64,000 nucleotides of DNA from Heterotrichella gracilis (lineage: Eukaryota > Sar > Xanthophyceae > Tribonematales > Xanthonemataceae), in contig JAULBX010025718.1 of NCBI GenBank assembly GCA_032358255.1, positions 62,001 to 126,000 on the forward strand, written 5' to 3'. Below the pieces are notes generated by a model, which did no database searches, was not told where the DNA came from, and was given only the letters and a program-made list of their open reading frames with translations. Below are positions 850-63,700 of this stretch, one piece after another; positions within the stretch are counted from its first letter, which is position 1, and each line of letters begins with the position of its first letter. Both the position numbers and the translations under genes were made by a program.

Positions 850-3800
850 ATGGCGCGAGCTGGGTCAGTGTTGGCCAGGGGTTGTGGAGGGTGGCAACAG
901 ATGTTCGCTGGCCACACCAGTGGCCACATCGGTGGTATGCCGTCAGCGTCCCTCGCAATTGCTGACTGCCTGGGCGCCAATCAGGGTAGGTGCTCGGCAT
1001 GAATTCGTGCTGGGTCGTTGATTCACCTGCACAACACACAATAGTGGTACACAAGACTGTGTGTTTGACTGAGTAAGGGAGCGCATGCTCGTACCAGTGA
1101 CCTTGTTTTAGAGTGCAGGCAGCGCAACGAGCCTGTTAGGTTGCTTGCACCATATGCATGCATGTCATCTCTATGCCGGTTCCGCATGCGTGCAGTTGGC
1201 CACACCTTTACAACGTGTTTGCACCCTGACCGTACACTCAAACACCCGCATCCACTCATCCACAGCCACCGCCCCCACCACCCCCTACCACCCCACCACC
1301 CGCCACCTGGCCACCGCCACCCCCTCACCCCCCCTGGACGAGACCCAGCTGCAGCGCCTGCGCGACACCCCCATAGCAGTGTTCTCAGCATCACGATACG
1401 TGCGGGAGTTCATGAAACCACTGGAGCAGGACTTCCACAACATCCACTATTTCGAGGTGCGCCAAGGAAAAACCCTATGGCCAAACCCTTGCCTCTGAGG
1501 ATGCGGATAGAACCCCGATCGCCAAGCCCTACATGGATCAGATGCCTTAGGTAGGGTTGAAACAGCTGGCTCAACAGTACCCTCCGAGGTGGCCTGCCTC
1601 ACCAGTCCTAAACTCTAAAGCCTCTTGAATCCATTGTATGGTGCGTGCAACAGTATGGGCTTGGCATATAATAGGAGATGCTTCACAAGATATAGCTTGT
1701 CATATTGTATTGGCGCAAGGCCGTATGCCATTTAGGTTTGCTATGTGCTTGCCCTAGAGTGTGGCATTAGGGTTTTGCATGATCTAACCCTAGGGTTTTC
1801 CTGCAGGCTCGCCTGGACAAGTTCAACGCCAAGCTGGCGCGTGGCTGCGAGGTGGTCAACCTGTTTGTGAACGACGTATGCGACGCAGAGGTAAGTCCAC
1901 AGGTGTAGGGGTTAGAGTTAGTTATTGACTGAGACCACATTGGTACGAGGCCGCAGAGGCGCAGCACCTCATCTGCACGCTACCCACCTCAGGAGTGAGC
2001 TGGTAAAAAATCCTCTGGAAACATTGCTGAAAGCTGCATGGCATCTGATATTGCTTCTGGTCTCTTGTTGCACACTGTTCAGACGAGCTGTTTGTTGATA
2101 TGTTAAAGTCCGGGGTGGTGTTCATTCTCCAGTCCCAGATGTTACAATGCCCTGACGATTATTAAGCATTTTGTCATTTGAAAACTACATCATTACTACC
2201 CTGCCCCCCAGAGTTGCTTAAAGACAGGTCAAGATGGTCTCATGGGGACATCTCGACGAGGTCGCATCCCCATGCTCACCCAGTTCAATCCCCGCCCCAG
2301 GTGGTGTCCATCCTCCAGTCCCAGGGGGTGCGGCTGGTGTCCATGCGGTGTGCGGGGTACGACCGGGTGGCCGTCAAGGCTGCGGTGGCTGCGGGGCTCA
2401 AGGTGGTGCGGGTACCCTCCTACTCGCCGCAGTCGGTGGCGGAGCATGCAGTCGCGCTCATTCTGACGCTGGCTAGGTGGGTGTGGATGGGGAAGATGGG
2501 GGTGGGGCCGAGGGTGGGGCCAACACGTGAGACCAGTAAAATTGGGTTGGTTGGTGGTGCAAGGTGGGTATTGGTGGGTGCAAGGAGGGGAGGGAAATGG
2601 GTTGCACTCCTCCTGGCCGCAGTGGGTGGCGGCGCAGGTGGTGGCGCTCATTCTGACACTGGCCAGGTGGGTGCGGGCTGCGGGAGTGGGGCGGGGTGGG
2701 GGGTCTGGGGTGGCAGAATTCTTGCTGGGTTGGCGCTGGCGTTGGCGCTGGCAAGGTGGGTATTGGTGGGTGCATGGAGGGGAGGGAAAGGTATGGCCCT
2801 CCTATTTGTGGCAGTCTGTGGCGGAGGCCGCAGTGGCGCTCATTCTGACGCTGGCGGGAGGGGGGCGGGAAGGGGCGGCGGGTTCATTGCTGATTTTGTG
2901 GTGCATGTGCTGCCACTGGCATGGTGTGTGTGGGGCTGTGCAGGGTGCAGGTCTGGGATTTGGTGTGCCCCCTGTCCCCACCTCACCACCCGGCTGTCCC
3001 CCGCCCCACCATTAATCCATGCAGGAACACACATCAACATGCTCACCAGTATGTGACACACATGCACACATAGCACAACGCACACAAGCACCCCTTGGGC
3101 ACTCCCGTTCTCCACCCCGCACCCACCCACGCAGGAACACGCATCGCGCCTACAACAACGTGCTGACCGGCAACTACGCGCTCACCCAGGGGCTGCTGGG
3201 GTTTGAGGTGGCGGGCAAGACGGTGGGGGTGATCGGGACGGGCAAGATTGGCACTGCGGTGTGCAAGATGATGAAGGTGAGGGGGAATTGAGGGTAGTGG
3301 TGGTGGTTGTAGTGCTTAGTGCCAGTTGGGCATGGTAGTGCAAACAGTAATGAAGGTGAGGGCTTTAAGGTATTCATTTTTATTACTTAATCAATTTGTT
3401 AATTAATTCAATTTTGTTCCCAAAGCGAGGCGGGCTGATACTGATGGTGGTGATGGTGGGTGTGGGGTGCTATGGTCAGCTTCTGTACTCCATTCACAAA
3501 GGAATGTGCATAACCATGCCCACGAAGACTGCACATGCAACCAGCGCATTTGCACATGTGTGGATTGAGGTCTTGACATGTTCCTCTTCCCGCAGGGCAT
3601 GGGGTGCAGAGTGATCGCTTTCGATCTCAAACCCAACCCCGAGTGTGAGGCCATTGGGGTATCTTACTACCCCACGGTGGAGCCGCTGCTTGCAGAGAGT
3701 GACATTCTCACCATGCACTGGCCGCTGCTGCCGTCCACCGTGCACTTCCTCAATGCGGAGAGGTGACCATTGACTCCAAACCCTAAATCTTTCATACAAA

Positions 3801-4497
3801 ACCCTAAACCCTGCACTGGCCACTGCTGCAATCCACCCGTGCAAGTTCTTATAATGCAGACAGGTGACAACAAACCCTGAAGCTGAGGATCCAGCATGCC
3901 ACACAAGCGTTGCAGTGACCGCGACTTTTAAGCAGTTCATCCCGATTAGGTGCACCTTCTAGGAACGAGTGGGTCGGGGACTGAGTGGAAAAGAGTGCGT
4001 GTTGCAGGATTGCCCACTTGAAGAACGGGGCTGTGCTGATCAACGTGAGCAGGGGAGGTCTTGTTGACACAGATGCGGTGCTGGATGCACTGGAGTCGGG
4101 CCAGATTGGCGCGTTTGGCACAGACGTGTATGAAAACGAAGGTATGTGTATTATAGCATTTCTGCTCCTGCTCAATTGCTTGAAAATTTAAGGATGTTTT
4201 GAGAAGTCTCCTTGTAAACACTGACGGTGCATCGGCAAGCTTTTCATATTGCTGAACAAACCCCTGCCTTTTGCAGGCAATCTTTTCTTCAAGGATTATT
4301 CCTCCCGGCCCACCAATGAGCGGATGGGCAGCTGGGACCGAAAATTCACCCTCCTCAAGTCCCTGCCCAACGTGCTGGTCACTCCCCACATAGCCTTTTT
4401 CACGCGGGAGGCGCTGGCAGAGATTGCTGCGACCACAAGGGAGAACATCAGGGATTGGGTGTTGGGGAGGAAACTAGTAAACGAGGTCAAGGCATAA
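850..4497 (+). CDS. D-lactate dehydrogenase (LdhA type), 8 exons
   Basis: This enzyme reduces pyruvate to D-lactate with NADH, a fermentative step. Exons are 850-985, 1266-1456, 1807-1890, 2301-2476, 3135-3276, 3596-3762, 4008-4141 and 4277-4497; phases agree and give about 416 residues. Visible motifs are VFSASRY at the start of the catalytic domain, [30 protein letters not shown], the NAD-binding VIGTGKIG (about residues 228-235), NVSRGG with the substrate Arg near 314, TDVYENE with the catalytic Glu, and TPHIAFFT with the catalytic His near 381. Order and spacing match bacterial LdhA (about 330 residues) rather than plant glycolate-type enzymes. The extra N-terminus starts [11 protein letters not shown], is rich in Arg and Ala, lacks acidic residues at first and resembles a mitochondrial presequence. 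Exon 1 is supported only by splice phase; the rest is firm. Introns after exons 4 and 6 hold exon-edge copies. Confidence 0.92.
2431..2870 (+). repeat. Triple tandem copy of the exon 4 3' edge (D-LDH intron 4)
   Basis: The end of exon 4 ([15 protein letters not shown] plus the GTGGGT donor, 2431-2485) recurs at about 2620-2675 and 2813-2865, a period of about 190 bases. The second copy keeps ALILTLAR and a GTGGGT donor; the third has lost the donor. The spacer between copies (ggtgggtattggtgggtgca...) is also duplicated, so whole blocks of exon edge plus intron were copied. Confidence 0.85.
3715..3870 (+). repeat. Decayed copy of the exon 6 3' edge with telomere words between (D-LDH)
   Basis: Bases 3714-3768 (cactggccgctgctgccgtc... 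to the donor AGGTGA) are followed by aaaccctaaa...aaaccctaaaccc and then a degenerate copy, cactggccactgctgcaatcc...gacaggtgac, at 3812-3867. The order is exon edge, telomere-like words, exon-edge copy. Confidence 0.75.
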
Positions 4498-4971: not shown

Positions 4972-7900
4972 ATGGATACGCCTGCACCTCGTCCGTTGCA
5001 GCATGACGCACAGGGCAGTCAGCCAGCAGCTCTGTTTGCGACACACCACAGCCATTCTACAGCAAACTTCGGCTCGACACAAGGTTCTGACCTGACCAAG
5101 CTTTGGGACACCTCTGCACCAAAGCAGCAAGGGTTGCAAGGGTTCCAGTTCACTCAGCAGGCCGATGGGAGCTTGCTTTTTGAAGAGGAGGACGTAGCCT
5201 TCGATCCATTGTACCAAGCTGGTGCACGCTTTTCCCAGCTATCAGATTCTAAGATGGGGGCATGCGTTTCCAGTCCACAGCCCCAACCCACTCAGGAAGC
5301 GATGCCACTGACCTTCACACAAAAGCACCTGCACCAGCTTGCAGCACAGCACCCACAAACTGATAAGGCACCAGTGCATTTAGAGGCAGAGCAAGTAGAG
5401 CGCATCAACAGCCTACGTGTGCTTTCTGCACTGTCTGAAGGGCTGGAGGTTGACCAAGCCCACCACAGCCAAGCACGGGGAGGACCACAACGGCGTGTCA
5501 GCACCTCTACAGCCAGTGCAACCAGCGTTTCACCCAGGTCCAACAGCCTCTCCAAGCTCATTGCACTTGCGGAGGAAGAACAGGGAGCTGCACAACGGTT
5601 GCAACCTCCCTCAAGGAGTGGCAGCCTGAAAGCATTCTCAAGGGCTGTGCCAGACTCCTTTGAAGTTGCAGCGAGCCAGGTTCCCTCGCAGGGTTACAAC
5701 GATGGCGGGTACTTGCACCAAGCCCTGAGCTTTTCTGACTCAGACAATGACCACCCCATGGGCGCTGATGCAGCACACTCCAGCCAGTTCAGAAGCAGAA
5801 ATGGCAGTGGCACCAGGAGCAATGCTACCACCAGCACAGTCTCTCCAGGCAACAGCATGGAAGCCTCAGTAGATCACATCACCCCATACAGGAGCCTCAC
5901 CCACCCATCAGAGCGCAGCCAATGGCGAATGCCCGACCACCCACACCATGGGCTACAGGTCATGCCACAGGACCATGCGCTTGCCAGCCCTTTGACCAGC
6001 GAGTATGCCGACAGCCACCACATCCCACTGGAGGGCCAGTGCGACCTGTTCAGCCCTGGATCAAGCAGCCCAGGCACACCCCCAACCACATCCAGCATGC
6101 ACACGCCAGCCCACAGGTTGCTGCAGGACCAGCCATCCTACCCAGCTTCGGCAGCGGAGATTGGCCACACCCCAAGCACCGCAACTGCCACTCCAGCAAG
6201 CGTGGGTGGGCGGGGTAGCCAGCGCCACGCGGCAGCCAGTGCATCAAACCCTAAGGGTAAGCAGCCTGGCGGCGGACAGGTGGCAGCCAGTGCATCAAAC
6301 CCTAAGGGTAAACAGCCTGGCGGTGGACAGGTAGCAGCCAGTGCATCAAACCCTAAGGGTAAACAGCCTGGTGGACAGGTGCATGTTGGCAGGCTCAAAC
6401 AGGAGCACAGAGGTCATCCCACTGCCCCACCTGCAGCCAAACCTTCTGCCAAGAAGACCCAGCAGCAGGGCAAGGTGGCGCGACAACTGCCTGGCAGAGT
6501 TGCAGGAGGTGCAAAGCCGCGTGCATGGAGCCCTGGTGCATCCTCCCCTGCTCGAGGGAGGCCCATCACTCGGGGAGCACAGAGTGCCAAGCGCAGCCCG
6601 GCTCACAGGTAGGATCCATTTCAAACCCTAATAAGGGTAGACACTGAACCCAAGAGCCTCGATTACATCTTCCTCTATCCACTCGCACACACCCTTCCAT
6701 TTCATGCCACTTTTGTTGTCTGGCGCAAAATTGAAAAGAGGCTATCACATGCATTCATGCGATTGCCCCTGTGTAATCATTGTATCCAGCGTTTGAATTT
6801 TTTGTCTTCTCTATCTACAGCAGTGCTAGGGCTAGAGCTCGGGTCAAGGCCCCCACCCCCAGCATGGCACAGCTGGGATTGACTCCAAAAGCCAAGCAAA
6901 CCAATGACAGCCTTGCAGAGACAGCGGCATCACTGGATGAGGGTGCCTCTCCAGACCTGGATGACGAGGCTGTTGAGGAAGCCCTGCAAGCTTGGCGGAG
7001 GGTCCACCATCCACTGAAGTACAGGTAGGCTGCTTTAGGGTTTAGGGTTTTGGACAGGTGGGTGGCTCATATGCATGCATCAATCAGCATGTATTGATGC
7101 ATGCATTTTAACGACCTACATGTAACCTTCCCACTGAGCCAAGTCCGCATTACACAGGCTGAGCCACCTCAGCAGACAGACATTACCAAGATGTCCTTAG
7201 AAGCAGGATGGTCCATGGTTGTATATTTCACTACACTATTTTGCTTACATATTGATAAATAAATGATTGACCATTGGTTTGCAGGTCAAAGAGCGCCCCG
7301 CGACTGGGCACACAGCCACCTCCACGTGCAGCCCCCAGCCGCACACCGTGGGACGCATCTTCACGTGTGGACCACAGGGATCCGGTGCTGGAGTGGCTGC
7401 CCCCCAACTTCCATGTGCGCTTCAACTTTGATGCCACACTGCGCGGGGGTGATGCGCCTGCTGCCTGTGGTTCTGACCAGTCTGCCAGGAGCAGCAGCCC
7501 ATTTGCACAGGTAAAAATAGGCAAAAAGCTTCTATGTATAGCTAAACACGGGAATGTAAATGTACTGTTTTCTATTTGAAATTTCCCTTTGCTGGTAGGC
7601 AGGCTGCGGCCTTCAGTTCAGGGTGTATCAATTTAGGGACTAGGGTTTAGGGTTTGAGGTTTAGCCCCTCTGCATAAGTAGGCCGGCTGTGAACTTCAAT
7701 TAGGGTTTTACAGTTTCAAGCTTATTGTGTGGTTGGTCCTTGCAGGCGATGTCACCAAGTGTGAGTCCCGGCCTTGGCCCCCGCCACACCCCTCAACCAT
7801 ATGACAACCCCCACACCACAGCCTCCAGCCAGGTCGCCACCACCACCAGACACAGCCACAGATATGCACCAGCTGTACTCACCACAGCCACCGCTGGAAA

Positions 7901-14392: not shown

Positions 14393-17300
14393 ATGCGAAG
14401 GCTGGGGCTCATCGCCACGTTACGTTCCATCTGGCCGCAAACCTCTCAAGCTGACGCCTCGTGCAAGCTGGCAACGTTCTTGGCCCAAAGGCGACAGATA
14501 AAATCTGGATCTGACGATGAGGAGTACAGTGGGAGGCCTGCCACGCCGTGGGTGCGGAGCGTCATCTCTGGGGTGGACCTCATTCGGAACCCGAAGTAAG
14601 AGCCCACCTCCTGCCTGGGCACCTGGTAGAGTGCCAAAGCACAGTTCTACATTCTCAGTGGGTTTTCACGACCAGCTGCCGTGGAATGTGCATCCCTTGG
14701 GTCAACTTGCATATCCATGCATTAGCTGTGTCCCCAAGCTAGGGTGAGTGCTTGGCCAGGTGGAAAACACCATGCGTGTGTGTGTTGTGCCTAGCTTGTT
14801 ACCTGTGAGAGTACCCTATCTGTCTGTGAGGCTGGCACTTGGCAGCGGCTTGGAGTGTGGCTCTCCTATTGAACGCAAGCTAGGGATACTCGGGGATAAG
14901 TGCTAGGGATACTCGGGGATGAGTACCTGGCCAGGGTGGAACACACCCTGTGTGTGTGTTGTGCCTGGCTTGTCCCCTATGACCGTCCCCTTTCTTTTTT
15001 GTCTCCCTTCCAGTAAGGCTGGCACTTATTAGCGGCTTAGAGCCTACGGCATGTGGTTCCCCTGTTGAACGCAACCTGCCCAAAGCCACGCATTGTACTG
15101 TGGGGCGTGTGAATCTGCCTTATATCTTTGTTGCACGCGCTGACATCCTCTCCCTCTAGTGCATGCACGCCATTGGCACCATGACACGGTCCCACCCACC
15201 GCACTGCACCCCAGGTACCACAAAGGGCTGGCCTTCACAGACAAAGAGCTCTGAGCTGGCAGGCCTAACACCCTTACCAAACCCTGCAGTGGCTCAGCCC
15301 CTGGGTGCCCCCTTGACCAACACTGCACCCCTGTTCTACCAACCGCAACCCACCGCATCCCAGGTACAACAAGGGCCTGGCATTCACAGACGAGGAGCGG
15401 GACCGGCTCTACATCCGGGGCCTGCTGCCACCTGCAGTACTCTCCCAAGACATCCAGTCGGAGCGCGTCCTGATCAATGTGCGGGGCCAGGCGGACGCCC
15501 TCTCCCGCTACACCTACCTCACCTCCCTCAACGAGAGGAACGAGCGCCTGTTCTATCACGTGCTGACCCACAACTTTGCCGAGCTCATGCCCTCTGTGTT
15601 CAAGCCCACGGTGGAGGAGTACAGCCGCAAGTACAGCCTCATGTTCCGGAGCATACCGCGCAGCATGTTTGTCAGCATACAGGTAAGGACACCCTAAACC
15701 CTTATTTAGGGTGTGAGTACAGCCTCATGTTCCGGAGCATACCGCGCAGCATGTTTGTCAGCATACAGGTAAGGAGAAGGACACCCTAAACCTTATGTAG
15801 GGTTTTACAGCCGCAAGTACAGCCTCATGTTCTGGAGCAGACCCGGCACCATGTTTGTCAGCATACAGGTAGGGACACCCTAAACCCTTATTTAGGGTTT
15901 TAGCAGTAGCCTTGTTCATGGGCACCCAGGTAGGATCACAGTCAGCAGCTTGTGTGAAGCGATGCTCCTTGTCAAAGCGTAGTAAACCTGCACGTGATCC
16001 ACTGTCGTGCAGCGCCTTGTCAAGCGCTTCTGGTTCAAATAGCAGATAGCAGGACGCATTATTATGATATATGTTATTATTATGAACAATAACATGCGTG
16101 CCTCTCCAGGACAAGGGCCGTGTGTTCTCCATCCTCAAGAACTGGCCTGAGCGGCGCATCAAGGTGGTGTGCCTCACAGACGGGGAGCGGTGCGGGAGCC
16201 ACGGGGACCTGGGCGTGCAGGTAAGGGGGGTGCATAGTCCTTTTAACCGGAAGCTTTATTATCAGGAATTTTTTCTCCGGGGGAGTATACGTTCTGAGCA
16301 AAGCGGGAGTCACGGGGACCTGGGCGTTCAGGCAGATTCAATTCTTCTCATGTAACTCAAATTTTTCAACCAAATAAAACATGTATTTTACCAAGGAAAT
16401 TCATCTTTTCACCCCCTGTGTGCAGGCAGTGAATGTGCCCATGAGCTATCTGCACATGTACACAGCAGTGGGCGGCATCCAGCCCTCAGACTGCATGCCG
16501 GTGTGCATAGATGCAGGCACTGACAATGAGGACCTGCTGGGTAGCGCATTCTATGTGGGAGAACGTGCGTGGGGGGGGATTGTGGGGTGGAAGAGGCCAT
16601 TACAGCCATTTCATGTCGACGTGAGCATACACACCAACACATTGAGAGTGGCATGTGGGCGCATTCAGTATTGTGGAGACTGTGGGTGCGATTGGGTGTA
16701 TTGCCAAACGAGGACCTGCTGCGCAGCTTTTTCCGCATGGGGGGATTGAAGTACGAGGGGACTGAAGTATATGTGGTGGGAATGGTGGCAACGGCCATGC
16801 ACTCACATGCAGACACACCGCATACAAGCCCACTGCATATACGGTAGCTCTACACACTGACACCCATCCCCGATCTCACCCCCTCCGCCACCACCCCGCA
16901 GGCCACCGGCGCATCAAGGGCGAGGCCTACTTTGAGCTCCTTGACGAGTTCCTCATGTCCTGCCAGCAGCGCTTCAGCAACACCATGATCATGCACTTCC
17001 AGGACATGGGCTTTGCAACCACGCAGGCGCTGCTGCAGCAGTACAGGGCGGCCTTCCCGGTGTACAGCGACGCGCTGCAGGTGGGTGGGGTGGAATTTGT
17101 TTGGCGGAGGGGGTTGGGTGGAGGGGAAAGGGAGGGGGATCTGCCAGTGTCGTGGTGGTGGCATGGTGGTGAGGGAGGTGGGGGGGGGTGGGAGAGGGTG
17201 ATTGGGGCGGCAACCACGCATGCCCCGCAGCAGTTCAGGGCAGCCTTCCCGGTGTACAGCAATGCACTACAGGTTGTTGGTGGTGGTGGGGTATGTAGAT

Positions 17301-19319
17301 GGTGCCAGCGGGGCGACACAAACCCTGGCCTTAAACCTTGATCTCCAATTTGAACTCTTAAATCTGATCTCACATCATAAGTCACACTTCCCACCCTGCA
17401 GGGCACCGCCAGCATGGTGCTTGCTGGACTGCTGGCCGCCCTCCCCAGTTTGGGCCAAGGGGGCCTACACCAACACACGCTCATGTTGGTGGGGAGCGGG
17501 GCTGAGACAGCCTTCCTGGCAGAATTCCTTGCAGAATTTATTGCAAGGTAAGCCATACAACCATATTAAAACGGTTTCTAGATGTCTTTTAGTTGTCTTT
17601 CCTTCCTAGCCGTGCTCATTGCGAGGTGAGAACGCTACGAGGAAGTGTGCACTACTTTGGGGCAGCTCTAGGGTTTGCGGTATGCGCCAACCCTAATCCC
17701 CTAGAATGAAGCTTTCAACCCTGCAACGAAGCTCAAACCCTCTCCACTTCCTACCAGGGAGGAGATACCTCAGGGGGGTTTGGTACTCGAAGCCAGGGAG
17801 CGCATGTGGCTGGTGGACGAGCATGGTCTCCTGCGCAGGGGGAGGGAGGATGCGAACGAGCTGGGGGTGTCTGTGCTCCCCTTCTGCCATGACGCGCCCC
17901 CCTGCGGGGATCTGCTGCAGGCCGTCAAGGCGCACAAGCCAACGGTGCTCATAGGTGCGGGCAGGGGTGTTAATATATACACCAGGAAGCCCCTGTTTTA
18001 TATACTCCTGGTCTATATATAAACAACCATGGTGCGGGCTGTGATATAGGGTTTGGGGCTTTATGATTGTTAAGTTACACTATCCCCCCTCCCCCCCACC
18101 CCCCGATGTGGTCCGAACCTGCCCCAAGCAGCCAGGGCTAACAAGCCAATTGTGCATTAATTTGGCATGCCACTGTCCCAAAACCACCAACCCGCACGTC
18201 ATGTGTGTGCTTTGCCTCCTGTGCCCTTCCCTCCCCCCTGCCCGTTCCCTTTCAACGCACCATTACCACTCCTTTCATCCCCACCCACCACCTACCACCA
18301 CCCACCCACCTGCAGGCCTTGCCCCCTGCGCCTCCTCGGGCCTGCCCTTCCAGATCAACGAGGCGGTGTGCAGGGAGATGGCCACCCACAGCCCGCACCC
18401 TGTCATTTTCAACCTGGCTTCGGCGACGCAGGATGATCACACAGCGGCGGAACAGGTGGGTGAAGGTGTGGGTTGGGGGTAGGGGGTGTACCGTAGAGTG
18501 TGTAGGATTTAGGGTTTGGTGGCCACCCACTGACCTAAATAATCACCAAAGAGCAAAACCAACCCCGAAAACACCTCCAGCTCAGTGGTGCTCAGTGAGA
18601 TGAGCGAGTAGTCATCATCCCACCTCAGGACACGGGTTTTGGGGTTTTGGGGTTTTCCCTCTGAACTCCTGCTGCATCCACCCTGCAGGCGCAGCAGATA
18701 ATGGAATGGACCGAGGGCCGCGCCCTATACGTGGACAGCAACCTCTCCACCCAGCGGGCCCCCGTGGAGGCGCCAGGTGGCGGCCAGCGGGTGGCCAACG
18801 GGCTGCACACAGTGATGGCATTCCCGGGGATTGGGCTGGGGACTGTGATGTCGAGGTCGACAAGGATTCGGGAGGAGATGCTGTGGGCGGCTGCACGCGC
18901 CATCGCTCGCCAGGTGGGGGTCGGTGATGCCGCGTACATTAATCATAATATGAGCTGCTATAAAAGTTAAAACTTTTGATGTTGAAAAAAAGACCTTTAA
19001 AAGTGTGAATGCGCCATTTAATGCAATTTCCCCCGCCAGGTGCGAATAAGACATAAAAAACAAATATTTTTGAAAAGTATACTACTTTAAAACCCACCAC
19101 CCCCACCCCCCACCACTGCAGGTGACCGAGGAGCAGCGCGCCACAGGGCAGCTATACCCCGACGTGGCCACTGCGCGCCACCTGGCGGCCCATGTGGCCA
19201 CAGCCGTGGCGCGCAAGGCGTACGACTTGGGGGTAGCAACCGCACTGCCCAAGCCCCACGACCTCCATGCGCATGCGCGCGAGTTCATGTATGTGCCCAA
19301 GTACAAGAAGTACCGATAG
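14393..19319 (+). CDS. Malic-enzyme homologue lacking active-site residues (probable pseudoenzyme), 10 exons
   Basis: Exons 14393-14595, 15364-15682, 16110-16220, 16426-16564, 16902-17080, 17402-17547, 17758-17954, 18316-18455, 18689-18913 and 19122-19319 join in phase to give about 618 residues, normal for the family. Family landmarks are YNKGLAFT, RGLLPPAV, LNERNERLFYHVL, LTDGER, HGDLGV, CIDAGTDNEDLL, GTASMVLAGLLAAL, AFPGIGLG and the C-terminal REFMYVPKYKKYR. Active malic enzymes oxidatively decarboxylate malate using a Tyr, a Lys and a metal site of Glu, Asp, Asp. Aligned by eye with human mitochondrial ME2 (numbers from memory), Tyr112 is Phe (SVFKPTV), Lys183 is Tyr (NVPMSYLHMY), Glu255 is Gln (HFQDMG) and Asp279 is Ala (YSDALQGTA). 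The LSNPT and GNN substrate motifs are also gone (NLASATQ, ANGLHTV). The frame is intact, so this looks like a retained protein without malic-enzyme activity. At least five exon edges are duplicated in introns or 3' flank. Confidence 0.9.
14745..15085 (+). repeat. Tandem duplication inside intron 1 of the malic-enzyme homologue
   Basis: The block 'gagtgcttggccaggtgg...tgtgtgtgtgttgtgcct...ggctggcacttggcagcggcttggag...ttgaacgcaa' (about 14745-14880) recurs at about 14920-15075 with moderate divergence. The 20-base word ctagggatactcggggatRag is itself repeated at 14880-14922. Confidence 0.75.
15180..15420 (+). repeat. Copy of the exon 2 5' edge with acceptor (malic-enzyme homologue)
   Basis: ccgcactgcaccccagGTACCACAAAGGGCTGGCCTTCACAGAC (15197-15243) mirrors ccgcatcccagGTACAACAAGGGCCTGGCATTCACAGAC at the true exon 2 start (15353-15392). 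The copy keeps the acceptor but hits a stop soon after (gagctctga). Confidence 0.8.
15640..15905 (+). repeat. Three copies of the exon 2 3' edge separated by telomere words
   Basis: The true exon end (agcctcatgttccggagc...agcatacag|GTAAGG, 15636-15690) is followed by accctaaacccttatttaggg, then a near-perfect copy with donor (15719-15780). Another accctaaacc...tagggtttt follows, then a third, more diverged copy (15809-15876), and again accctaaacccttatttagggtt. It is the cleanest example of exon edge and telomere-like word being copied together. Confidence 0.9.
16185..16340 (+). repeat. Copy of the exon 3 3' edge (malic-enzyme homologue)
   Basis: gagcggtgcgggagccacggggacctgggcgtgcag (16185-16220) recurs as gagcaaagcgggagtcacggggacctgggcgttcag (16296-16331). 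The copy lost the GT donor. Confidence 0.85.
16520..16760 (+). repeat. Copy of the exon 4 3' edge (malic-enzyme homologue)
   Basis: aatgaggacctgctgggtagcgcattctatgtggga (16526-16561) is echoed by aacgaggacctgctgcgcagctttttccgcatgggg (16707-16742). Confidence 0.65.
17015..17285 (+). repeat. Copy of the exon 5 3' edge (malic-enzyme homologue)
   Basis: accacgcaggcgctgctgcagcagtacagggcggccttcccggtgtacagcgacgcgctgcag|GTGGGT (17018-17086) is echoed at 17212-17276 (accacgcatgccccgcagcagttcagggcagccttcccggtgtacagcaatgcactacaggt). Confidence 0.88.
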
Positions 19320-48318: not shown

Positions 48319-50271
48319 ATGGCGTCAAGAACAGTGTCAGGCAAGACCGTCATCGTCACTGGGGCGAACCGTGGCCTTGGCTTGGAGGTGAGTCTAAATT
48401 GGCATGCATGCATATGCACAATATGCACGCCGCGGCCCCATGGCAACGGTCCACCGGAACCTGCTATTCGCTCATAAAGAGTCTCTCGAAAGTTGTTGCA
48501 GAATCATTATTAGCTCTTATTGTAGTTCGTCTGTAGGGCTTGCACTTCGCTTCCGGAACGTTGGGCACAGTTCCGGAGCATCAGCAGTTCCGGAGCATCA
48601 TGCACCGTTCCGGAAGTACTATTCCGGTACTAGCTCATTAGCTTACTAGCTTAACCCGGGGCAGAGCTTTTACAGTGCGTCCAGGTCAAATACAGCTCCT
48701 GCATGCCAATGTGGCGCTGCAATTTAGAGCAGTGATGGCCTTTGTGCGCATGCGCTAGCGGGGGGGCATCGGTGCCTGGTCAACCCCCACCCCTGCCCTG
48801 TGTTCTAATTAGACGGCGGGATTGTGTGGCTAGCTCGTCGCTGTCTGCACACGCCTTTTGAGCACTCCTTTGTGTGAGCGCAGTGGGTCAAAGAGCTCCT
48901 CGCAAGCGGCAACACCGTCTACGCAGCGGTTCGAACCCCTGACGCTGCCACCGCCCTCAACGAGCTTGCCTCCAGCAGCCAGGACAAGGTGGTGGTGACC
49001 CAGGTGGACGTGGCCTCTGAGGAGTCGGTCAAGGCGTGGGCGCGGGGCCTCAAGGAGCTGTCAGTCGGACACATAGATGTAAGGGGTGCACGGTGGTGTG
49101 AGTGCTGATGTTGGTGTGAGTGCTGTGAACCCTCCTCTGTCCGTTGCCTGCGCAACACCCTCTTGCAGCGCATCCCTAAACCCTAAACCCTACCACCACA
49201 TGGATACCCACTCCAGCAGGTCCGGTGTGCGCAACGCCCTCACACAGCGCAACCCTTAACCCTAAATCCTGAACCCTAACCCCCGCCATCAAATGGGTTC
49301 CCCTCCAGCAGATCTGGTCTGCGCAACAGAAGCTTTCTGCCAATGCAGCGCACTGCGCAACCTGCATATGTGAGGTGCCTTATCTACCTAGTTGGCGTCA
49401 GTTGTGCCCTGTGCTTTTAAGCAACGCTCCCTTCTGTGTCAGCGCAACAAGCCGCGCTAGCCGGTGACAACCCGCCATTAACTCCTTCACATGCACGCCC
49501 AGGTGGTCATCAACAACGCTGGCGTATTTCTGGAGGGTCTACAGAAGGACTGGGACTCCATCGAGGTGGATGACTTCCTGACATCCTTCAAGGTGAACAC
49601 CCTGGGGGCCTTTGTGGTCACCCGGGAGCTGCTGCGCGCGGGTCTCATAGGCCAGCCAGGAACCATCGTCCTCAGCATTTCCTCCATCTTGTCTTCCATC
49701 ACCAACACAAGCTTGGATGGGCCAGGGTAAGTAGTTGGCCCAGCGTGTGCCTATGTCTCTTGGCGATTTTGGTGGGACCCATTATTATGTTCCACTCAGT
49801 GCCGACCACTATTTTCAAGGCCAACTTGTTAGGAGTACTGTTACACGTTGACCAATACCCTTAAACCCAATCTCATTCTCACTTGTTCCTCCCTCAGAAG
49901 CAAGGCTCTTCGTCTTTTGCTCCTCTGCGCTACTGTAAACCTTAAAACCCTAACCCTAAACCCTGAACCCGCTCACGCTCGCACTTGCTGCCTCTCTCAG
50001 GAGCAAGGCCCTCGCCTTCCGCTCCTCCAAGGCCGGCCTCAACATGATCAACAAGCACATTGGCCTGGCGTTTGCCAAGGACAACATCACCTGCGCCGTG
50101 GTGCACCCTGGTGCCTACTACGTGGAGACAGACATGTCGGCTCACCCAGAGAGCAAAGCAATCGGGGCTGAGGAGTGTGTCAAGGGCATGCTGGCGGTGT
50201 TGGCGAGGGGCCGCGAGGGGCTGAGCCACGATGTGCTGTACAGCTACGATGGCACCACCATCCCGTGGTAG
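48319..50271 (+). CDS. Short-chain dehydrogenase/reductase with catalytic Tyr replaced by Phe
   Basis: Exons 48319-48387, 48884-49078, 49503-49726 and 50001-50271 join in phase to 252 residues, the classic SDR length. The cofactor loop is VTGANRGLGLE, followed by AVRTPDA (an Arg that often favours NADPH), QVDVAS, the NNAG motif (VVINNAGVFLEG), VNTLGAFVV, and the catalytic Ser in VLSISSILSS. The family's YxxxK is here FRSSK (ALAFRSSKAGLNM), so the general acid Tyr is Phe while the Lys stays. The next block, AVVHPGAYYVETDM, is normal. Closest in form to carbonyl-reductase or C-factor-like SDRs, which have YR(A/M)SKAALNM at this point. Without the Tyr hydroxyl, ordinary ketone reduction should be weak or absent. 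The Ser, Asn and Lys remain, so altered chemistry or a binding role are options. A decayed copy of the exon 4 start lies in intron 3. Confidence 0.92.
49130..49365 (+). repeat. Tandem units of about 100 bases with telomere words in SDR intron 2
   Basis: Two to three units share the pattern ctgcgcaacRccctc...agcgca...ccctaaaccctaaaccct...caYatggRtacccYctccagcagRtcYgg. They are at about 49147-49220, 49228-49320 and, more decayed, from 49318. Confidence 0.7.
49885..50045 (+). repeat. Decayed copy of the SDR exon 4 5' edge with telomere words
   Basis: ttcctccctcagaagcaaggctcttcgtcttttgctcctctgcg (49886-49929) resembles tgcctctctcag|GAGCAAGGCCCTCGCCTTCCGCTCCTCC (49989-50028). Between them is aaaaccctaaccctaaaccctgaacc. 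Confidence 0.8.
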
Positions 50272-54700: not shown

Positions 54701-57700
54701 GCAAGGGCGCTGGTTCCGGGAGTGGCAGAGCAAGGCAGTGCCAGCACAGTAGGCTAATGTAGGGCTTATCCCAAACCTTAAACCCCAAACAATTTCCTCA
54801 TGTTCACCTACCGTCAGCTGCATCCTCACTCCCCAATGTGCAGGTGTGGGGATCCCCAGCAGCCAGCGCGTGGGCATAGGCCTCTGCGTCCTCTGCCACC
54901 ACCACCGGCTCCACCCACGCCATGTGGAGCGCATGGATGGGGTCCAGCAGGCGCATGTGGGCGCCACGCGGGCTATCCCAGAAGCTGAAAGCTGCTCCCC
55001 GGGGATTGGCACTTGCAGGCGCATCCCCAGAAAATGCTGCCTCCTTGGGACTGGCGCATGCTGGTGCATCCCCAGTGGGATGTGGGTGGCCGGAAGGGGT
55101 AGCAATGGCGTGCTGGCCAGGGATTTCAGGTGGAGTGTGCTCGTGGTGTGCTGCGGGGCTGGATGGGTCACAGCCCAGATCACATGGGTTATAATTATGT
55201 GGGTCCGCATCCGCAGTGCTGGGGTCATGCGTTGGGCTGCCACGTGGCAAGCTGCCCGGTGGGCTTTGAGATGGTCCTTGCAGGGCATCGGGGGAGGGCT
55301 GGCCATGAGCGCTGCGAGCGCCAACACCGCTGCCTGGTTCCTCTTCCAAGATGGATGCCAGGTGGGCGCCTGGGTGCCCATCAGAAGGGCGCGGCTGCTG
55401 GGGAGGTGGCAGGGCCTCTTGCTGACCTGGCACGACCGGCTGCTGACCTGGCACGACCGGCTGCTGACCTGGCATGAGCAGCTGCTGACCTGGCACGAGG
55501 GACCCCTGCGCTGTCCTCCGCACTTTGTGGCTGCCGGGGCGGGTGCGCTTGCCCATGCGCATGGCGGGGAGGCCGGCCTGCGTATAGGAACAATGTGTGA
55601 GGTGGTAGTTTGCAAGCAGGTACATGGTACAGTCTCAAGCCAGGCATGCTGATCTGGCTTTAATAGTGGAATGCAAAATTCTTATCACATGTGCATCCAA
55701 AGCAATGAGGGATGTGGTTGTGTGCAGGCAGTTGCAGGGTACAGATTTTGAAGCCAGATTTTGAAGCCAATGCTAATTTGGCTTCATACTGGTCTGCAAA
55801 CAGTTACCTATTGTATGGTACACCTGGATGAGCAATTAGTATTGCACATACAGCAGCAAGCAACTTCATTTGGCGCAACGGTGTGGCGGCACATTCGGAT
55901 CATCCCAGTGCAATGGCAGGGTTGCGCATGCAGTCACTCCTTTAAACACACACATGCAGTCACCCCCCTCCCCCCTCCACCCACCTCAACACCGCCACTA
56001 CGCAGGTCGGTGCCAGTGGCCGTTGCGCCCTCCGCAGGAGGCACAGGTAGCAATCCTGACCCAACGGGCGCAGAACACACTGCAACCACAGCAAGCACCT
56101 GTCCCAGCGGCAGGTTAGCAGACAGCGCAGCTGCATCATGATGGTCGGCACCGACGGGGGCCTCTGAGTGAGCCCGGAGCGCGGGTGCGGGGGTTGCAGA
56201 GTGTGCTGGTGGTGGGTGTGATGGGGGTTTTGCACTAGTTTTGCTCAGTGCCCACCACTGCTTGCCACTGAGGGAGGCCACTGGGACCAAGGGGGTGCAC
56301 GCCTGCAGAGCAGGGTCTGGCGCGGCCTGCGGCAGCAACGGGAAATGGGGGTAAGCACTCCTGGTAAATGGCGTGGAGTGCGCTGGCACTGTTTGACGTG
56401 CATGTTTAAAAACATAGAAACGATTTGATAGGTGAGGTATAGAAAAGGAAAAAGAATGACACATGTAGATTTCGAAGGTTTTTGGTGATTAAGGGGGAGA
56501 AGGGGCACACAAGAGGATTGATTTGAGGTGGGGGATGCAACGCCAATGAGCTGATCACCATGTTGTACAATCACCACCTACGCATGGTGATCAGCTTACC
56601 TCCACAGGCACCGCCATCCCCTTCCCCTTCTTGCCCTTCCTCCCTTTGCCCCCAACCTTCTTGAGCACCTGCAAGGCTGCCACCTGGCCCTGCGTGCTGA
56701 CGTCGCCCATGTTAAGGGGTCGCATGCTGACATCAGCATCGCTGGCCTCCTGCACAATGACATCACCGCCCGAGCCGCTAGCATCACCACCTGAGCCGTT
56801 GGCATCACCACGTGTTGCGCCACGCCTGCTGACATCAGCGTCGGTGGATTGGAGGATGCTGATGTCACCGCCGCCAGCTGCGAACCGGTTGCTGACATCA
56901 GCATCGGTGGCCGCATGGACAATGACATCAGCTGCCATGTCATCATCGCCACTGGCACCCGGACCCTTGACATCACCTCCCACATTACCCCGATTGCTGG
57001 AATCACCTCCGGCATTGGCACCCGGGCCGCTGACATCAGCAGCGATGCTGACATCAGCAACCCCTTTTCCAGGCACCAGGATGAGGCTCACCCTGCCATC
57101 GGGCACAAACTTGGCACCGGTGATGGCTGCAGCCACAGCGGCCTGCACAGCACACAGCACCGCCGTGTCAGAACCCTACTAAACCCCAAGTTAGGGTACA
57201 TTGTTTAGGGTTTTGGATTTAGGGTTTTAGCCACGGCGCCTGCACAGCACCGCGTCAGGCCCTTGGTAACCCCAAGTCAGGGTACATGTTGTAGGATTTA
57301 GGGTTTACAGCAGGGCGTAGGTTCCCTGCAAGACACAATTGAATTTAGGGTTCAGGGTTTATGATTTACAGTCTTGGATTATTTCTACAACCCCTGCGGT
57401 TTGCAGCCAACCTGCCAAGTGCCCACCTGGTAGCCACCCCACAACACATGTGGATTTAGGGTCTAGGGTTTAGGTTTAGGGTTTGCAGCCTGCATGTCAT
57501 GTGCCCAGCTGGTAGCCGCTACACCCTTATCCCCACACCCTAAACCCCATCCCCTGGGGTTTTGCAGCCTACCTGCCAAGTGCCCACCTGGTGGCCGCCA
57601 CACGACACATGTGGATTTAGGGTTCTAGGGTCTATGCTTTAGGGTCTAGGTTTATTTCACCACCCCTGGGGTTTGCAGCCTACCTGCCAAGTGCCCACCT

Positions 57701-60700
57701 GGAAACCACCCCAGGGCTGTGGGCCGAGCCCCTCAGCCACAGCGGCTTCAGGTTGCCCACACATTCCCAGCACCTCTGCTGGCACCTGCACACGGGTGTC
57801 ACACACAGTTACAATGACAGCAGGGCATTTGAAGCCAATATGATAGGCGTCTTAAGCCAATAACATGGTCGTCTTAAGCCAATAACATGGTCGTCTTAAG
57901 CCAATAACGTGGGCGTCTTGAGCCAATGATATAGGCGTCTTTAGCCAATAACATAGACGTCTTAAGCCATTGACATGAGCATCACATACCATTGCTCCAT
58001 GCACATTGTGAGCCTGATAATGCACAGAATGACCAAGGGGCTGGTGCCAGGGCATGGTGAATCAGATGGCGGCACAGCCCGCAGCATGCATGCACACCAT
58101 GCCGCATCGCGTTGGTGCACGCAAAGGGAGTGGTTGGTGCGTTCACTTTGCATGCAAAAATAGAGCAGGTACATGTGACACAGGCACCCCTGCGCACAAC
58201 CTAATGCATGCGCGCACATCGGAACCGGCCACAAGGCAGGTAAGTATGCGCTATTCCTAGCCACACAGTGCATGTCCACGCAAGGCCACTGCTGTTGCAC
58301 CCTCACACCTGCACTGCAGCCTCCTCCACCTGTTGCGGCTTTTGCTTGGGCTGCCGCCCCCGCCGCTTTTTTACAGGCGCCACCTGGCGCACCACCAAAG
58401 TAAAATACTAAGTAAATTAAAAGTATAAATAAATAACATTAATTCACTGAGTAAAAAACATGCCGATACAAAGCAACTATACTGCTGAATCCAAGTATGC
58501 AGGCATTGGTCGGAAAAGAGGCAGAGCAGGAGAGAGCTAGCCTCAGAACCTTGGTCATTTCCTCACAGGTCCCTATTACTGATAGTATCGGACCTACCTG
58601 CCCACCACCACCACCACCAGCCATGGCCACAGCCGCAGGCTCACCCAGGGCGTTGCCAGGCACGCGCGCCCCACCGCTGCCGGGGTCCAAACCAGGGGCG
58701 GCACCCCCCTCTGCACCCGAGGGGCCGCTGGGGCCCTGGCGCAGGGTGACGCCAGCATCTGCTGTGATGCGTGCCTGATCTAGGGCTGAAGGGGGAAGGG
58801 GAAGTGGGGCCTCCTGCTGAGAGGTAGGGATCGGCACCTGCGCCACCGCCACACACATGATTGGCGCAGGAATGGAGGAGAGTGTTTTATGACGCTAGTC
58901 ACTGTGTCGATCATGCCTTAGACGGCGGCAACGATGTCCCCCATAAATCAAACCCTAAACCCCAAACTGCTGCCTATGCAAGGCGCCTCACCTGCCCAGC
59001 CTCCGCTGCCCCCAGCACATCTGCCGGCCGCTGCTTGGGGGGCCGCCCCCGCCGCTTCTTGACACCCTTCTCCCCCCCTGCCACTCCCTTCTGGGCACCC
59101 TTCTTCCCTCGTCCCACTCCCTTCTTGACACCCTTCTCTCCCCCTGCCACTCCCTTCTTCACCCCCTTCTTCCCCCCTGCCGCCCCCTTCTTGACACCCT
59201 TCTTCCCCCCTGCCACGCCCTTCTGGGGACCACCACTGGTCCCCACAGCATCAGCAGCCGCATCCCCCTCCGCAGGCGCTTGGTCCCCACTGGAGGTACC
59301 TAGGGTGAATGCTGGCGTGGTGCTGGGTGGGGCTTGTGGCGGGTGGGCGGGTGTGGCGGTGGGTGGGGGTTCACGTGGGGCAAGGGTGGGTGCATCGACC
59401 TGGAGGTAGAGGGGGAGAATACGCAGTCAGTGTAGGGTTTTAGGGTGCATTGTACCAGACTGTGTCACCTACAGATTGGTTGGTGTTCCAACTGATACTC
59501 CAAATTTGGATCAACCTCTGTGCATTTCCATTTCAGTTGTCTGTGTGTCTTTGAACGCAAACTGAGACATGGTTGTTCATTTGTCTTGTTTCCTTCCATA
59601 TGGATGGGTGCAATGGGATCCACCCACACATGCGGGTGGGAACCAGCGGATGCAGCAGACTACCAAACCCTACACTTTAAACCCTAAACATGGGGCATTG
59701 GAATGAGCAGATACAGGATAAGCTGGGCAACACAACCCACCTGCCCCGATGGCACTGCAGGTACCTCCTCCAGCAAAGCGGCCAGAGCCCATTCCCTCAC
59801 AGGCCCCTCCAGGCCCCCACCCACCGCCTCCCGCTGCTGCTGCTGCTGGGGTTGCTGCTTGGGGGGCCGGCCCCCCTTCTTGAGGGGCACTTCCTGTACC
59901 ACAGGCTGTTGCATCCCCACAGCCTGAGGCAGAGGATGCTCCCCATGGGATGCGGGGGTGTCCTGTGGCATAGGCAGCTCCGCATTCTGCTTCTGCTGCT
60001 GCTTGGGGGCCCTGCCCATTTTCTTCTTCACCGGGGCATCGTGGGGCACAGGCAGCTCCGCCTGCACGTAAGAATAAGAACCAAAATGAGCACCCCTTGC
60101 AACGCTTACAGACCATAGGCGGCAGGCTAGGACAGGCGGCAGCGGTGGTGTGCAGAGGTTGCGCCCACATGCAAAAGCAATGAAGCACCACAATGAAGTA
60201 CAAAAATGGAGCAAAATGGAGCATGCTCCCGGGGTTACCCGCACATCCCCAGGTACAGGCTGTTCCGCCTGCACCACCTCCACCACCTGCTGCTTGGGGG
60301 CCCTGCCCATCTTCTTTTTCACAAGCGCAGCCACCGTTGGGTCCAATCCCAGGGAGGAATCCAATCCCAGGGACTGTGACTGCTGCTTGGGGGGCCTGCC
60401 CTTCTTCGCCTTTTTCACCGGCGCATCTGGGGATGGGTCGCATCCCTGCTGGAGCTGGCGCTTGGGCTGCCGGCCCTTCTTCTTTTTCACCTTCTCCGCC
60501 TGGGGCTCCGCCAATCCCTGGGCACCCTCCTGCATCCCCTGCCCCTGCCCTGGCTCATGATGCGTGGCTGCATCTGCGGCCCCCGCGCCAGCCACACCCA
60601 TACCCTCCTCCTGCGGTGGTTGAGGCTGCTTCGGCTTCCGACCCCCCTTCTTTTTCACCGGCACAGCCTGGGGCTCCGCCAATCCCAGGGCCTCCTCCTG

Positions 60701-63700
60701 CCCCGCATTCGCCACCCCCTGGTCCACCCCTTGCTGGTCCCCTTGACCCTGCCCCTGCTGGTGGTGTGTGGCTGCATCTGCATTTCCCTCATCAGCCCCA
60801 GCTGCACCCTCTTGCGGTGGTTGGTGCTGCTTGGGCGGACGGCCCTTCTTCTTTACCACATGGGTCATGTTGTCCCCAGGTGGGCGCTGCGTGGGCGGCC
60901 TGCCTCGCTTCTTCTTCACTGGTGCCACCGGTGCTAACAGAGCATCAGCCCCACCAGCCTCCTGTGCACATAAATATTAAGTGAATATTTGATATTTGGG
61001 ACAAATAACTGGCAAATAATATGCCCCACGGCACACGTACAGTGGCGATGGTTGAGAAAGAGACAGGGCGGGAGATGCAGGGTGAGAGATCGCCCTCTCA
61101 AGCAAGCCCTTGCAAATGTGAACCTACCTCTTGTGCAGGAGGATTGGCCTGCCCTTTGTGCTTTTTTGCAACTGGCGCCGCCTCCACACCCACCGCACCA
61201 GCCACACCCACCACACCCACCGCACCAGCCGCACCAGGGGCACCAGCCACATCCACCCCCTGCACAGGGTAGGTAGGTTGGCTAGTTAGTTGCTTACATG
61301 CATTCCCAGCAAAATAGCCACATGAGTTATCCCCCATGCACATGCGGCACTAGATAGGTTCAACCTGGCACTGCGTATACCATTTGTTGATCCCTTGCGC
61401 AATCCTAGGGTCCTGGGCGAGAAAGTCAGCCCCATGCGCCCATAATGTTCTTATTTGTGAAGAGAGACAGGCCTAAACCCTAAACCCTATACCTTAAACC
61501 CACAATGCATAAGGCTTATATGTGCAGGGAGATGCCTCAACCCTAAACCCATAGGGCTTACATGTGCAGGGAGATAGGCTTAAACCCTAAACCCCGAATT
61601 CATAAGGCTTACCTGTGCAGGAGGATGCGCCTGGCTCTTGCGCTTCTTGCCTGCCCCCTTTCTCGCCTTAGCCTGCCCCCCCTCCCCCTCCTGAGGCACC
61701 TTGGGGGGCCTCCCCCTGCGCTTCTTAACACCCTCCCCTGGACTCACCGCAGGTTGTAGCTGGTTCACCACTGGTAGACCCACGCCGCCCCCTGGTAGGG
61801 CATCGCCACCTGCCACCGCTGCACCCGCCTGGAACTGCTTGGGCAGGCGCAGGATGACCCTCGGTAGGGCATTGCCGCTGGTCACCGCGGCACCGGCTGA
61901 AACCCTTCCCGAGGGTGTGGGCTGCTCGGCTGCAGGTGCAGTGATGGTGTCGGGGCTGGAGGTGGTCCCCGGGAGGATGCCAATGGTGCCAGCTGCGGGG
62001 GATGCAGGTTCTGATTGCTCAGCTGCCGGTGGTGGTGCAGGGTCCATTTGCCCAGCGGCAGCAGCAGCAGCGGCGGCAGCAGTAGTAGCAGGTTGTGCGG
62101 CCTCCGGTTGTCCAGGTGCATGCGCATTGCCTGAAGGCCCTGCAGAAAAAATTGCACAATTACCAAGCCGCAGAAAGCACGTGCCTAAACCCTTAAATCT
62201 AAAGACTGAAAATGCCTGAAGGCCGTGCAGCAGCCCGTGCACAATCACAAAGCAGCAGAAAGCATGCCAATGCAGCACCATCAACACCCGTTTCACCAAC
62301 CCTGCTGAGGGTTATAATGTAATTTATACGTGTAGGGCCGCACCTGTGCGCGCCTGAACACGCTCGGCTGGTGACGGAATCACAGAGGTGGGAGCTGCAC
62401 TGCCATCTAGCGGGGGTGCGGCGCCATTTGCTGCGGCTGTGGCTGCGGCTGCGGCTGTGGGTAGCCCATCCCGCACTTGATCAGGCTGCATTAGACGAGA
62501 TTCTTGCTGCTCACGTGGGGATGCTGGCTGGTCATGCGGGGATGCTAGCCGGTCCCCAATTGGGGAGGACGAGGGGGCTGCAGCCCCTGCCGATCCTCCA
62601 CCCACCACAGGAGAAACGGCACCAGGTGCTACCTTGGCTTGTGCACGCCGCTGCTGGGCTTTGTCCCCCCCAGCGCCCGGCGCCTCCGACATAACTTCGT
62701 CCCCTTGGCCAACTGCGCCCGCCGCACCATCGCCAGGCGGCGCGCCAATGGCGCCGTCCCCTCCGCTGCCTGCTGCTACCTCCCCCTGCTGCTGGCTGGG
62801 AATAGCCCCCACACATCCCAAGGGCCTAGCAGGTAAATCCATGGGCGTGGTGGCGCCCCCATCCACACCCACACCCGCTCTGGCGGTCGCAATTATACCC
62901 ATAGTGCCCCCCACCACCCCCGCCTTGGTAGCGGTGGCAACCATGCCCGCTTTGGCGGGGACGTCCACGCGCTGGGTCAATGTGGTGATGCCCCGCTGGC
63001 GCCGGGCGCTGGCAGGGCGCGGGGACTGCTGCGGGGCGCGGCGGTGCGCTGGTGCGTGCGCGGTCTTGCCAGGTGGCGACCTCACCAGGCTAGGGTCACT
63101 GTCATCCTGCGGTTTAGGGTTCAGGGTTGAGGAATTATGGTTTAGGGTTAGGGTTTGAAGTCGAGCTTTTACACCAGGCTGGGGTCACTGTCATCCTGTG
63201 GTATAGGGTTTGGAGTTTAGCGGTAACAAGCAGCAGCCCGTGTTCTCCCCCTTGTGTGTAGTGAAGGCAATCTCACGCACCACTTCATGTGAAACCATGT
63301 GATTCACATGTACATGGACTGAATGTACTGTCGGAAAGTTCATGCCCACTACCTAAGTACTGTTACTTCACATGCATGTGCCCCAGTCCCTTTGCCACCC
63401 TCATTTGACATTTTAAACATGCTACTGCCGATGCCACTGTAGATGCACCTTCCAGCGCACCTGCAGCCACTTCTTGAGGTCTGTTGCGGGGAACCAGTAG
63501 CACATGCCGTCATCCACAAAGTACACCACCAGGCAGCCCTTCCTGGCTGGGTCCCTGCGCTGTATCACCCCCTTGAAGGCACCCCGCTGCACGTGGAACA
63601 CCTTGCCAGGGACCATCACGGTGCGCCCAATCAGCTCAGCGATGCCTGCACACGAGGAGAAGGAAAGTAAGAACAATACGTGCCACCGCGGGGTTTTGGG

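Follow-up and report, generated by a model that had tools for sequence, protein, structure and literature searches.

Local copies of exon edges and telomere-type words in introns of Heterotrichella gracilis

We observed that in a 64,000-nt stretch of the genome of Heterotrichella gracilis (Xanthophyceae; contig JAULBX010025718.1, positions 62,001 to 126,000; 'the window' below means this whole stretch), as well as in other parts of the same genome, introns carry short local copies of the edges of adjoining exons ('echoes'), and that telomere-type words such as CCCTAAA and TTTAGGG are enriched between copies situated close to each other. An initial annotation of the window had interpreted such copies as products of breaks near splice sites repaired by local re-copying, with telomere repeats added or used as microhomology, so that introns would grow and receive new splice sites in the same step. 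This interpretation is partly supported. The best explanation, to which we give somewhat more than an even chance, is that breaks close to telomere-type words are repaired by re-copying from templates a short distance away.

The analysed sample of 264 kb consisted of the window and 20 ten-kb pieces of the same genome (68.5 Mb in 903 contigs, which reads as eukaryotic); the pieces were placed irrespective of telomere words, and 9 of the 20 came from one contig. Genes were predicted by a gene finder that was self-trained on the same DNA and may take echoes for exons. Introns made up 49% of the sample; their median length in the gene models was 268 nt, with CAG/GTGAG-like donors and TGCAG/G acceptors.

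Copies of exon edges and their spacing

Self-alignment, run with telomere words masked, yielded 151 local direct-repeat pairs in 93 clusters (one further pair was discarded as low-complexity); pairs belonging to one array are not independent. A predicted splice junction was spanned by 81 of the 135 non- or barely overlapping pairs, compared with 40.8 ± 5.3 of shifted pairs. Among 406 predicted introns, 46 had a copy of an adjoining exon edge with a score of at least 40 (28 of the upstream exon, 22 of the downstream exon, 4 of both); mismatched introns, at most five others of like length per intron, gave 0.000 as printed, and inverted comparisons gave 0. The exon-edge copies are real, chance being excluded by the shifted, noncoding, mismatched-intron and inverted controls. 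Local re-copying, as had been claimed for the window, is recurrent in the sample and is seen genome-wide at donors.

Where enough intron bases were aligned, most copies retained the splice dinucleotide: of 28 donor echoes 21 had GT, and of 23 acceptor echoes 21 had AG. The duplicated segment thus carries a splice site, as in AGGT tandem duplication. Introns with echoes had a median length of 391 nt versus 254 nt for the others. Both observations agree with the proposal that copying makes introns grow and supplies splice sites. Divergence between copies was 0 to 30%, with hardly any pair fully identical, and repeated donors accompanied by telomere words recurred on many contigs; both facts argue against an artefact of the assembly, the chance of which we consider very small.

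A sharp boundary of donor echoes was considered but not adopted: 10 of 33 ended 5 to 9 nt past the donor, and among the eight donor echoes with identity of at least 0.90 four ended at 5 or 7 and four at 1, 18, 30 and 37. Loci picked by telomere 21-mers were too few to weigh (two of eight reached the repeat score, and two overlapped).

Introner elements spread intron sequence in algae. No introner-like families, that is, dispersed near-identical introns, were found in the 264-kb sample; unlike introners, the DNA copied here is local and not a dispersed family, save for one repeat in an echo intron (described with the window loci). There were 26 cross-record matches of at least 60 nt: 11 between the paralogs L014 and L015, 14 of one dispersed repeat and one other. 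Among the matches listed, gap sequences matched elsewhere mainly at telomere tracts.

Of 28 echoes measured from the donor, 15 lay 86 to 122 nt away; of 22 measured from the acceptor, 11 lay at 83 to 127 nt. Genome-wide, pairs of the donor octamer CAGGTGAG at 60-90, 91-121, 122-152, 153-183 and 184-214 nt numbered 81, 133, 49, 72 and 62, with ∼24 pairs per 31-nt class expected from word density in the sample; the reversed pattern gave 3, 0, 1, 3 and 0 pairs in the same classes. A preferred spacing near 80-120 nt is firmly established. A second spacing of 190-215 nt, hinted at by local pairs, was not accepted, the genome-wide excess being only two- to three-fold over the flat expectation; some pairs at this distance are two shorter steps summed.

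We also saw arrays of five to six donor octamers, fairly evenly spaced and with words between them, at C48:58129-58882, C487:111370-111722 and C807:11936-12287 (spacings of 84, 87, 87 and 87 nt in C487 and 131-157 nt in C48).

Telomere-type words and their relation to the copies

The window contains 39 CCCTAAA and 36 TTTAGGG. In the 264-kb sample telomere-type heptamers were the most over-represented among 7-mers seen more than 60 times: AACCCTA occurred 329 times versus 23.5 expected from dinucleotides, while the seven reversed words occurred 27 to 47 times. The exact 14-mer CCCTAAACCCTAAA was found 5,629 times in the genome, its reversed word five times. Internal telomere-type words are far above chance, as in interstitial telomeric sequences inserted at breaks. 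Tracts account for 3.1% of the bases in introns, 0.9% in intergenic sequence and 0.3% in coding sequence, and word density is highest within 40 nt of donors. The telo box of plants, AAACCCTA, was present at 1632 per Mb in introns, 314 in predicted intergenic and 127 in coding sequence, a density in introns ∼5 times the intergenic one. C-strand tracts start with AAAC, the phase of the telo-box core, in 200 of 478 cases; among tracts of at least 14 nt the number is 24 of 53 (chi-square p 8e-8), the other end being less biased (p 0.001). The placement is not that of plant telo boxes, which are enriched at promoters and 5′ UTRs but not in introns; UTRs were not mapped separately here.

The core phase, the strong intron enrichment and the density peak near donors could indicate that selection keeps the words in introns as functional telo boxes or as elements for splicing or chromatin, with the duplications incidental. 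Still, intronic words show no strong preference for either gene strand (224 C-type, 185 G-type), which disfavours an RNA-level signal; since both orientations are common, a branch-point or other RNA-level role was set aside as the main cause. In addition, Arabidopsis introns are not enriched in the telo box (150.7 per Mb versus 155.2 in the genome; PMC3022908), and the words are concentrated between copies, more so with higher tract content. We regard selection on the words as quite an unlikely explanation.

Close pairs (offset of up to 125 nt) had a tract in 32 of 45 gaps versus 6.2 ± 2.3 in the noncoding null; tracts made up 27% of the gap bases versus 9% and 7% of the two 60-nt flanks. Looking from the words, we observed direct-repeat flanks for 63 of 364 telomere clusters versus 131 of 3,640 random positions, and for 61 of 294 intronic clusters versus 143 of 2,940 random intron positions, which were unmatched for exon distance (odds ratio 5.1). 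None of the 294 intronic clusters had inverted-repeat flanks. Direct-repeat flanks were found in half of the clusters with three to six G/C runs (25/50). A tract was present in 34 of 46 echo introns versus 22.0 ± 3.2 length-matched introns free of echoes, and tracts made up 12.0% of the bases between splice site and echo versus 5.6% elsewhere in these introns. Hence the words are enriched at copy junctions relative to both noncoding and intron-matched controls (32/45; 61/294); a lack of such enrichment, which the initial annotation had named as refuting its idea, was not observed.

Genome-wide, the donor octamer was followed within 30 nt by a word in 532 cases (225 CCCTAAA, 307 TTTAGGG) and preceded by one in 120 (59 and 61), with 1 to 3 cases for each reversed control; these counts are matches, some of which share a donor, and the contrast partly restates the intronic location of the words.

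Copies and words had also been described as often interleaved. Of 45 close pairs, chosen slightly differently from the 45 of the gap test, 18 had words in the gap only, 14 had words in the unit too, and 13 had none. The 14 unit-like pairs, together with the fairly evenly spaced arrays of up to six donor copies (C487, C48), are what one would see if units with chance telomere words expanded in tandem by plain slippage, as minisatellites do. Slippage is at odds with the 18 gap-only pairs, with other spacer sequence between copies and with the word enrichment over intron-matched positions; we consider it very unlikely.

Two related genes, carried by L014 and L015, allowed us to compare eight introns of one gene pair. 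All eight are at shared positions, and no new intron at a previously intronless place was seen among them. Intron 4 of L015 has an acceptor echo (score 53) and intron 7 a donor echo (score 49), with scores of 22 and 16 at the same places in L014; an echo is present in one paralog with no detectable copy in the other. In intron 4 the L015 stretch from echo to acceptor aligns to the end of the L014 intron with a score of 45, reached by none of 500 shuffles. In intron 8 the first 31 nt, including a telomere-like word, are common to the paralogs (26/31, 0 of 500 shuffles), and the similarity after the echo is weak (6 of 500 shuffles). The word-like spacer of intron 8 reads TAGGGTTT in one paralog and TTGGGGTTT in the other, and the intron 4 spacer is modestly similar, with no exact word. 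Judging from these alignments, the spacer seems to be older than the echo, clearly in intron 8 and modestly in intron 4, and the exon-edge copy would be the inserted part. A piece copied from a nearby flank, as expected of polymerase theta, is observed; that it was inserted is indicated by the two paralog introns, one of them modestly. The initial suggestion that telomere repeats were added gains no support from these two introns, in which the spacer looks like old intron (in one clearly, in the other modestly).

The intron 8 echo of L014 is 98% identical to its own exon, and it has a counterpart in L015; therefore identity is no clock, and near-identity of copies does not support recency. This echo may be old and homogenised, possibly by gene conversion between exon and echo.

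It could also be that a break was healed by a few telomerase-made repeats and joined with staggered-end fill-in, leaving new telomeric DNA between the flank copies, in the manner of mammalian interstitial telomeric sequences. The 18 of 45 close pairs with words in the gap only would fit such filler, and so would G-strand tract ends biased to ...GGGTTT, as if synthesis stopped at a template boundary; a model of telomerase acting at breaks has been published for plant telo boxes (PMC3022908), and among interstitial insertions flanking duplications accompany 6 of 130 in rodents and 4 of 25 in primates (PMC2246262). However, the paralog spacer seems older than the echo (in intron 8, less clearly in intron 4), exact tract is just 27% of gap bases with no excess of abutment, and ...GGGTTT is also the phase of the telo box. 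We see telomerase filler as an unlikely explanation. For the words themselves a telomerase origin is compatible with the end-phase bias and with the printed telo-box model; telo-box selection fits equally.

Loci in the window

Ten loci singled out in the initial annotation each hold a direct repeat, with a best pair score of 46 to 163; the best of 100 shuffles per locus scored 17 to 29, a slightly lenient control in that shuffles were scored at one cut point, whereas many were tried on the real stretch and the best was taken. Two ranges were slightly widened for this comparison (49840-50045 and 63040-63215). An exact CCCTAAA or TTTAGGG is present within nine of the ten ranges, and 37030-37325 has other rotations. 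The count of 'seven of twelve genes' with such copies was not reproduced as worded; the finder gave nine models, some of them merged genes. Telomere words are missing from several repeats within the noted range (2415-2869, 16192-16332 and 24586-25063). The features are as follows.

2369-2882, + strand: earlier D-lactate dehydrogenase (D-LDH) exon end in three copies, without telomere words (repeat family D7)
3715-3767, + strand: D-LDH exon end with donor, copy A; the exon ends at 3762, the border being taken from the alignment with solved D-LDH; self-blastn pair of 79% over 56 nt
3768-3812, + strand: 45-nt spacer with two telomere tracts, AAACCCTAAA and AAACCCTAAACCCT
3813-3868, + strand: intronic echo of 3715-3767, with AG/GT
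15620-15717, + strand: malic-enzyme-like exon end, donor at 15683, with CCCTAAACCC...TTTAGGG tract, copy 1 (repeat D11; border by homology)
15706-15903, + strand: malic-enzyme-like copies 2 and 3, intronic, the tract copied along with the unit
16192-16332, + strand: copy of the end of the following malic-enzyme exon (30 nt at 93%), without telomere words
22459-22633, - strand: acceptor echo, gap with three tracts
24586-25063, - strand: predicted exon end in three copies, without telomere words
27380-27796, - strand: region of intron 27437-27754 with echoes of both adjoining exons, words in the donor-side gap only
28455-28659, - strand: three copies with CCCTAAACCC tracts between
30068-30391, - strand: exon-edge copies with TTTAGGG tracts between
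37014-37326, + strand: exon end with donor, present three times, with TAAACCCTAA-type words where the copies join
38083-38284, + strand: 52-nt unit in about four copies, telomere words within the unit
49857-50027, + strand: short-chain dehydrogenase acceptor echo, 76%, CCCTAAA in the gap (border by homology)
57388-57702, - strand: three to four copies, the gaps containing telomere words in both orientations
61508-61593, - strand: 42-nt tandem unit with CCCTAAA
63083-63210, - strand: acceptor echo, 92%, TTTAGGG words between copies

In three window genes exon borders were confirmed within one residue by protein homology. The joined protein aligned without gaps to solved malic enzyme across 15682/16110 and to D-LDH across 3762/4008, and with a one-residue gap to short-chain dehydrogenase at 49726/50001; the D-LDH joint that omits the echoes at 2.5-2.9 kb (second and third copies), picked by eye, left a one-residue difference. 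As these joints fit the homologues, the copies at such sites are best read as intronic. Pfam assigned no family to 5 of 10 exon queries, and two matches were below the curated cut-off.

The finder called as exons the open echo copies at 2623-2709, 2815-2900, 30230-30370, 37154-37199 and 37262-37308; echo copies open enough to pass for exons are an annotation hazard. The malic-enzyme-like model 14393-20629 continues into a MYND zinc finger exon at 20089-20629 (Pfam PF01753); either the genes are fused or the finder has joined two separate ones.

Other repeats were seen in the window. A dispersed repeat of ∼70-165 nt at 20761-20879 has relatives in L009, L011, L013 and L023, its members being 78-98% identical. 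At 27061-27307 the spacer between two echo copies (offset 330) carries a dispersed repeat as well, also seen in L026 at 7438-7516 (92%), L022 and L017; this piece inside an echo intron is mobile-element-like. A 22-bp tandem array of about seven copies at 57823-57999, without telomere words, adjoins an echo region.

Proposed process and its meaning

According to the explanation we prefer, re-copying near telomere-type words, introns would break, or synthesis would stall, at or adjoining such words; repair would copy a piece of ∼40 to 80 nt, usually one lying at a distance of ∼80 to 120 nt, and insert the copy. The product would be a tandem unit carrying the word, or a displaced copy with old intron between copy and source. 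Because introns are short, the copied piece would often be an exon end with its splice site; copies would be tolerated if the outermost true splice site survives, leaving introns that are longer and rich in exon echoes and surplus splice sites. The words would spread via copying, and their first source might have been a single action of telomerase at a break. The repair step could be polymerase-theta-like or template switching.

Several observations weigh against this explanation. At larger offsets the association with words fades: gaps of pairs at 126-260 nt had a tract in 29 of 61 cases versus 13.1 in the null, and beyond 260 nt there was no excess (13/27 versus 12.3). Thirteen of the 45 close pairs have no tract at all, and in gap-only pairs the tracts abutted 9 of 36 copy ends versus 6.4 ± 1.8 at random, which is no significant difference. 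A general break process would not predict words as intron-rich as they are (1632 versus 314 per Mb in intergenic sequence). Non-telomeric intronic clusters with at least four G/C runs were repeat-flanked in 9 of 98 cases versus 143 of 2,940 random positions; with so small an excess, G-quadruplex formation alone is no explanation, and the idea of the words as plain G-quadruplex sites was set aside as weak. The homology of the intron 4 spacer is modest (45 versus 43 for the best of 500 shuffles), and the far side of that insertion did not align to the paralog, its scores being reached by 90 and 179 of 500 shuffles. The gene models, too, are ab initio only.

Neither is a special link with exon borders, as originally claimed, supported. 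Repeat flanks were found for 49 of 211 clusters with coding sequence in the 120-nt flanks versus 12 of 83 farther away, which is not clearly commoner, and duplication rates were similar in intron interiors (22 pairs per 130 kb) and intergenic DNA (11 per 48 kb). Tracts were present in 15 of 20 gaps in intron interiors, 52 of 78 at junctions and 2 of 8 in intergenic DNA. An exon copy is conserved and so is detectable for longer, and this detection bias weakens the junction excess (81/135 versus 40.8 ± 5.3) as evidence of targeting. It seems to be proximity, together with conservation of the exon-edge copy, that brings exon edges into the set; targeting of splice sites gains no support.

Each ingredient of the process is known. 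In rodents and primates telomere repeats were inserted at double-strand breaks, with occasional duplication of flanks (PMC2246262); the tracts described here are similarly short and internal, with flanks sometimes duplicated. In those insertions, though, duplications are a minority, whereas here copies of ∼30-80 nt recur and degenerate words abound in introns; in both cases open to comparison the spacer looks ancestral. For plant telo boxes an origin by telomerase and strand invasion was proposed (PMC3022908). The core is the same, but plant telo boxes are rich in 5′ UTRs and unenriched in introns; here the intronic density exceeds the one in Arabidopsis ∼10 times, and local duplications are marked by the words.

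Intron gain is known to occur via tandem genomic duplication or break repair with filler DNA (PMC3443670, PMC3296678), which similarly involve duplicated exon segments with AG/GT and a link to repair. Here the echoes are in existing introns, at positions common to the compared paralogs, and so they point to intron growth rather than to demonstrated gain. The main texts of these two papers contain no word starting with 'telomer'. At G-quadruplex breaks polymerase theta makes templated insertions from break flanks, patchwork-like in plants (PMC8654963). The flank-copied pieces, the plant patchwork and breaks at G-rich motifs resemble our case, which differs in the tie to telomere-type words and introns; a role of this enzyme here would be by analogy. 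In the open-licence literature, as far as excerpts reach, we found no paper joining telomere words with exon-edge duplications.

More broadly, the words may serve as recurrent break or joint points of genome-wide intron growth, with exon edges and splice sites pasted at ∼80 to 120 nt and with words and splice sites multiplying together, as about one in nine introns would show; we put this forward tentatively, as somewhat less probable than not. How introns lengthen and acquire spare splice sites has long been asked, and the answers have mostly relied on faint traces. In H. gracilis the products seem plentiful and span everything from identity to 30% divergence, so that the steps may be traceable from one strain to another. 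Should the link with telomere words be causal, interstitial telomere-type words would be tied to intron size in one lineage, and its introns would offer a natural system for error-prone repair at G-rich words.

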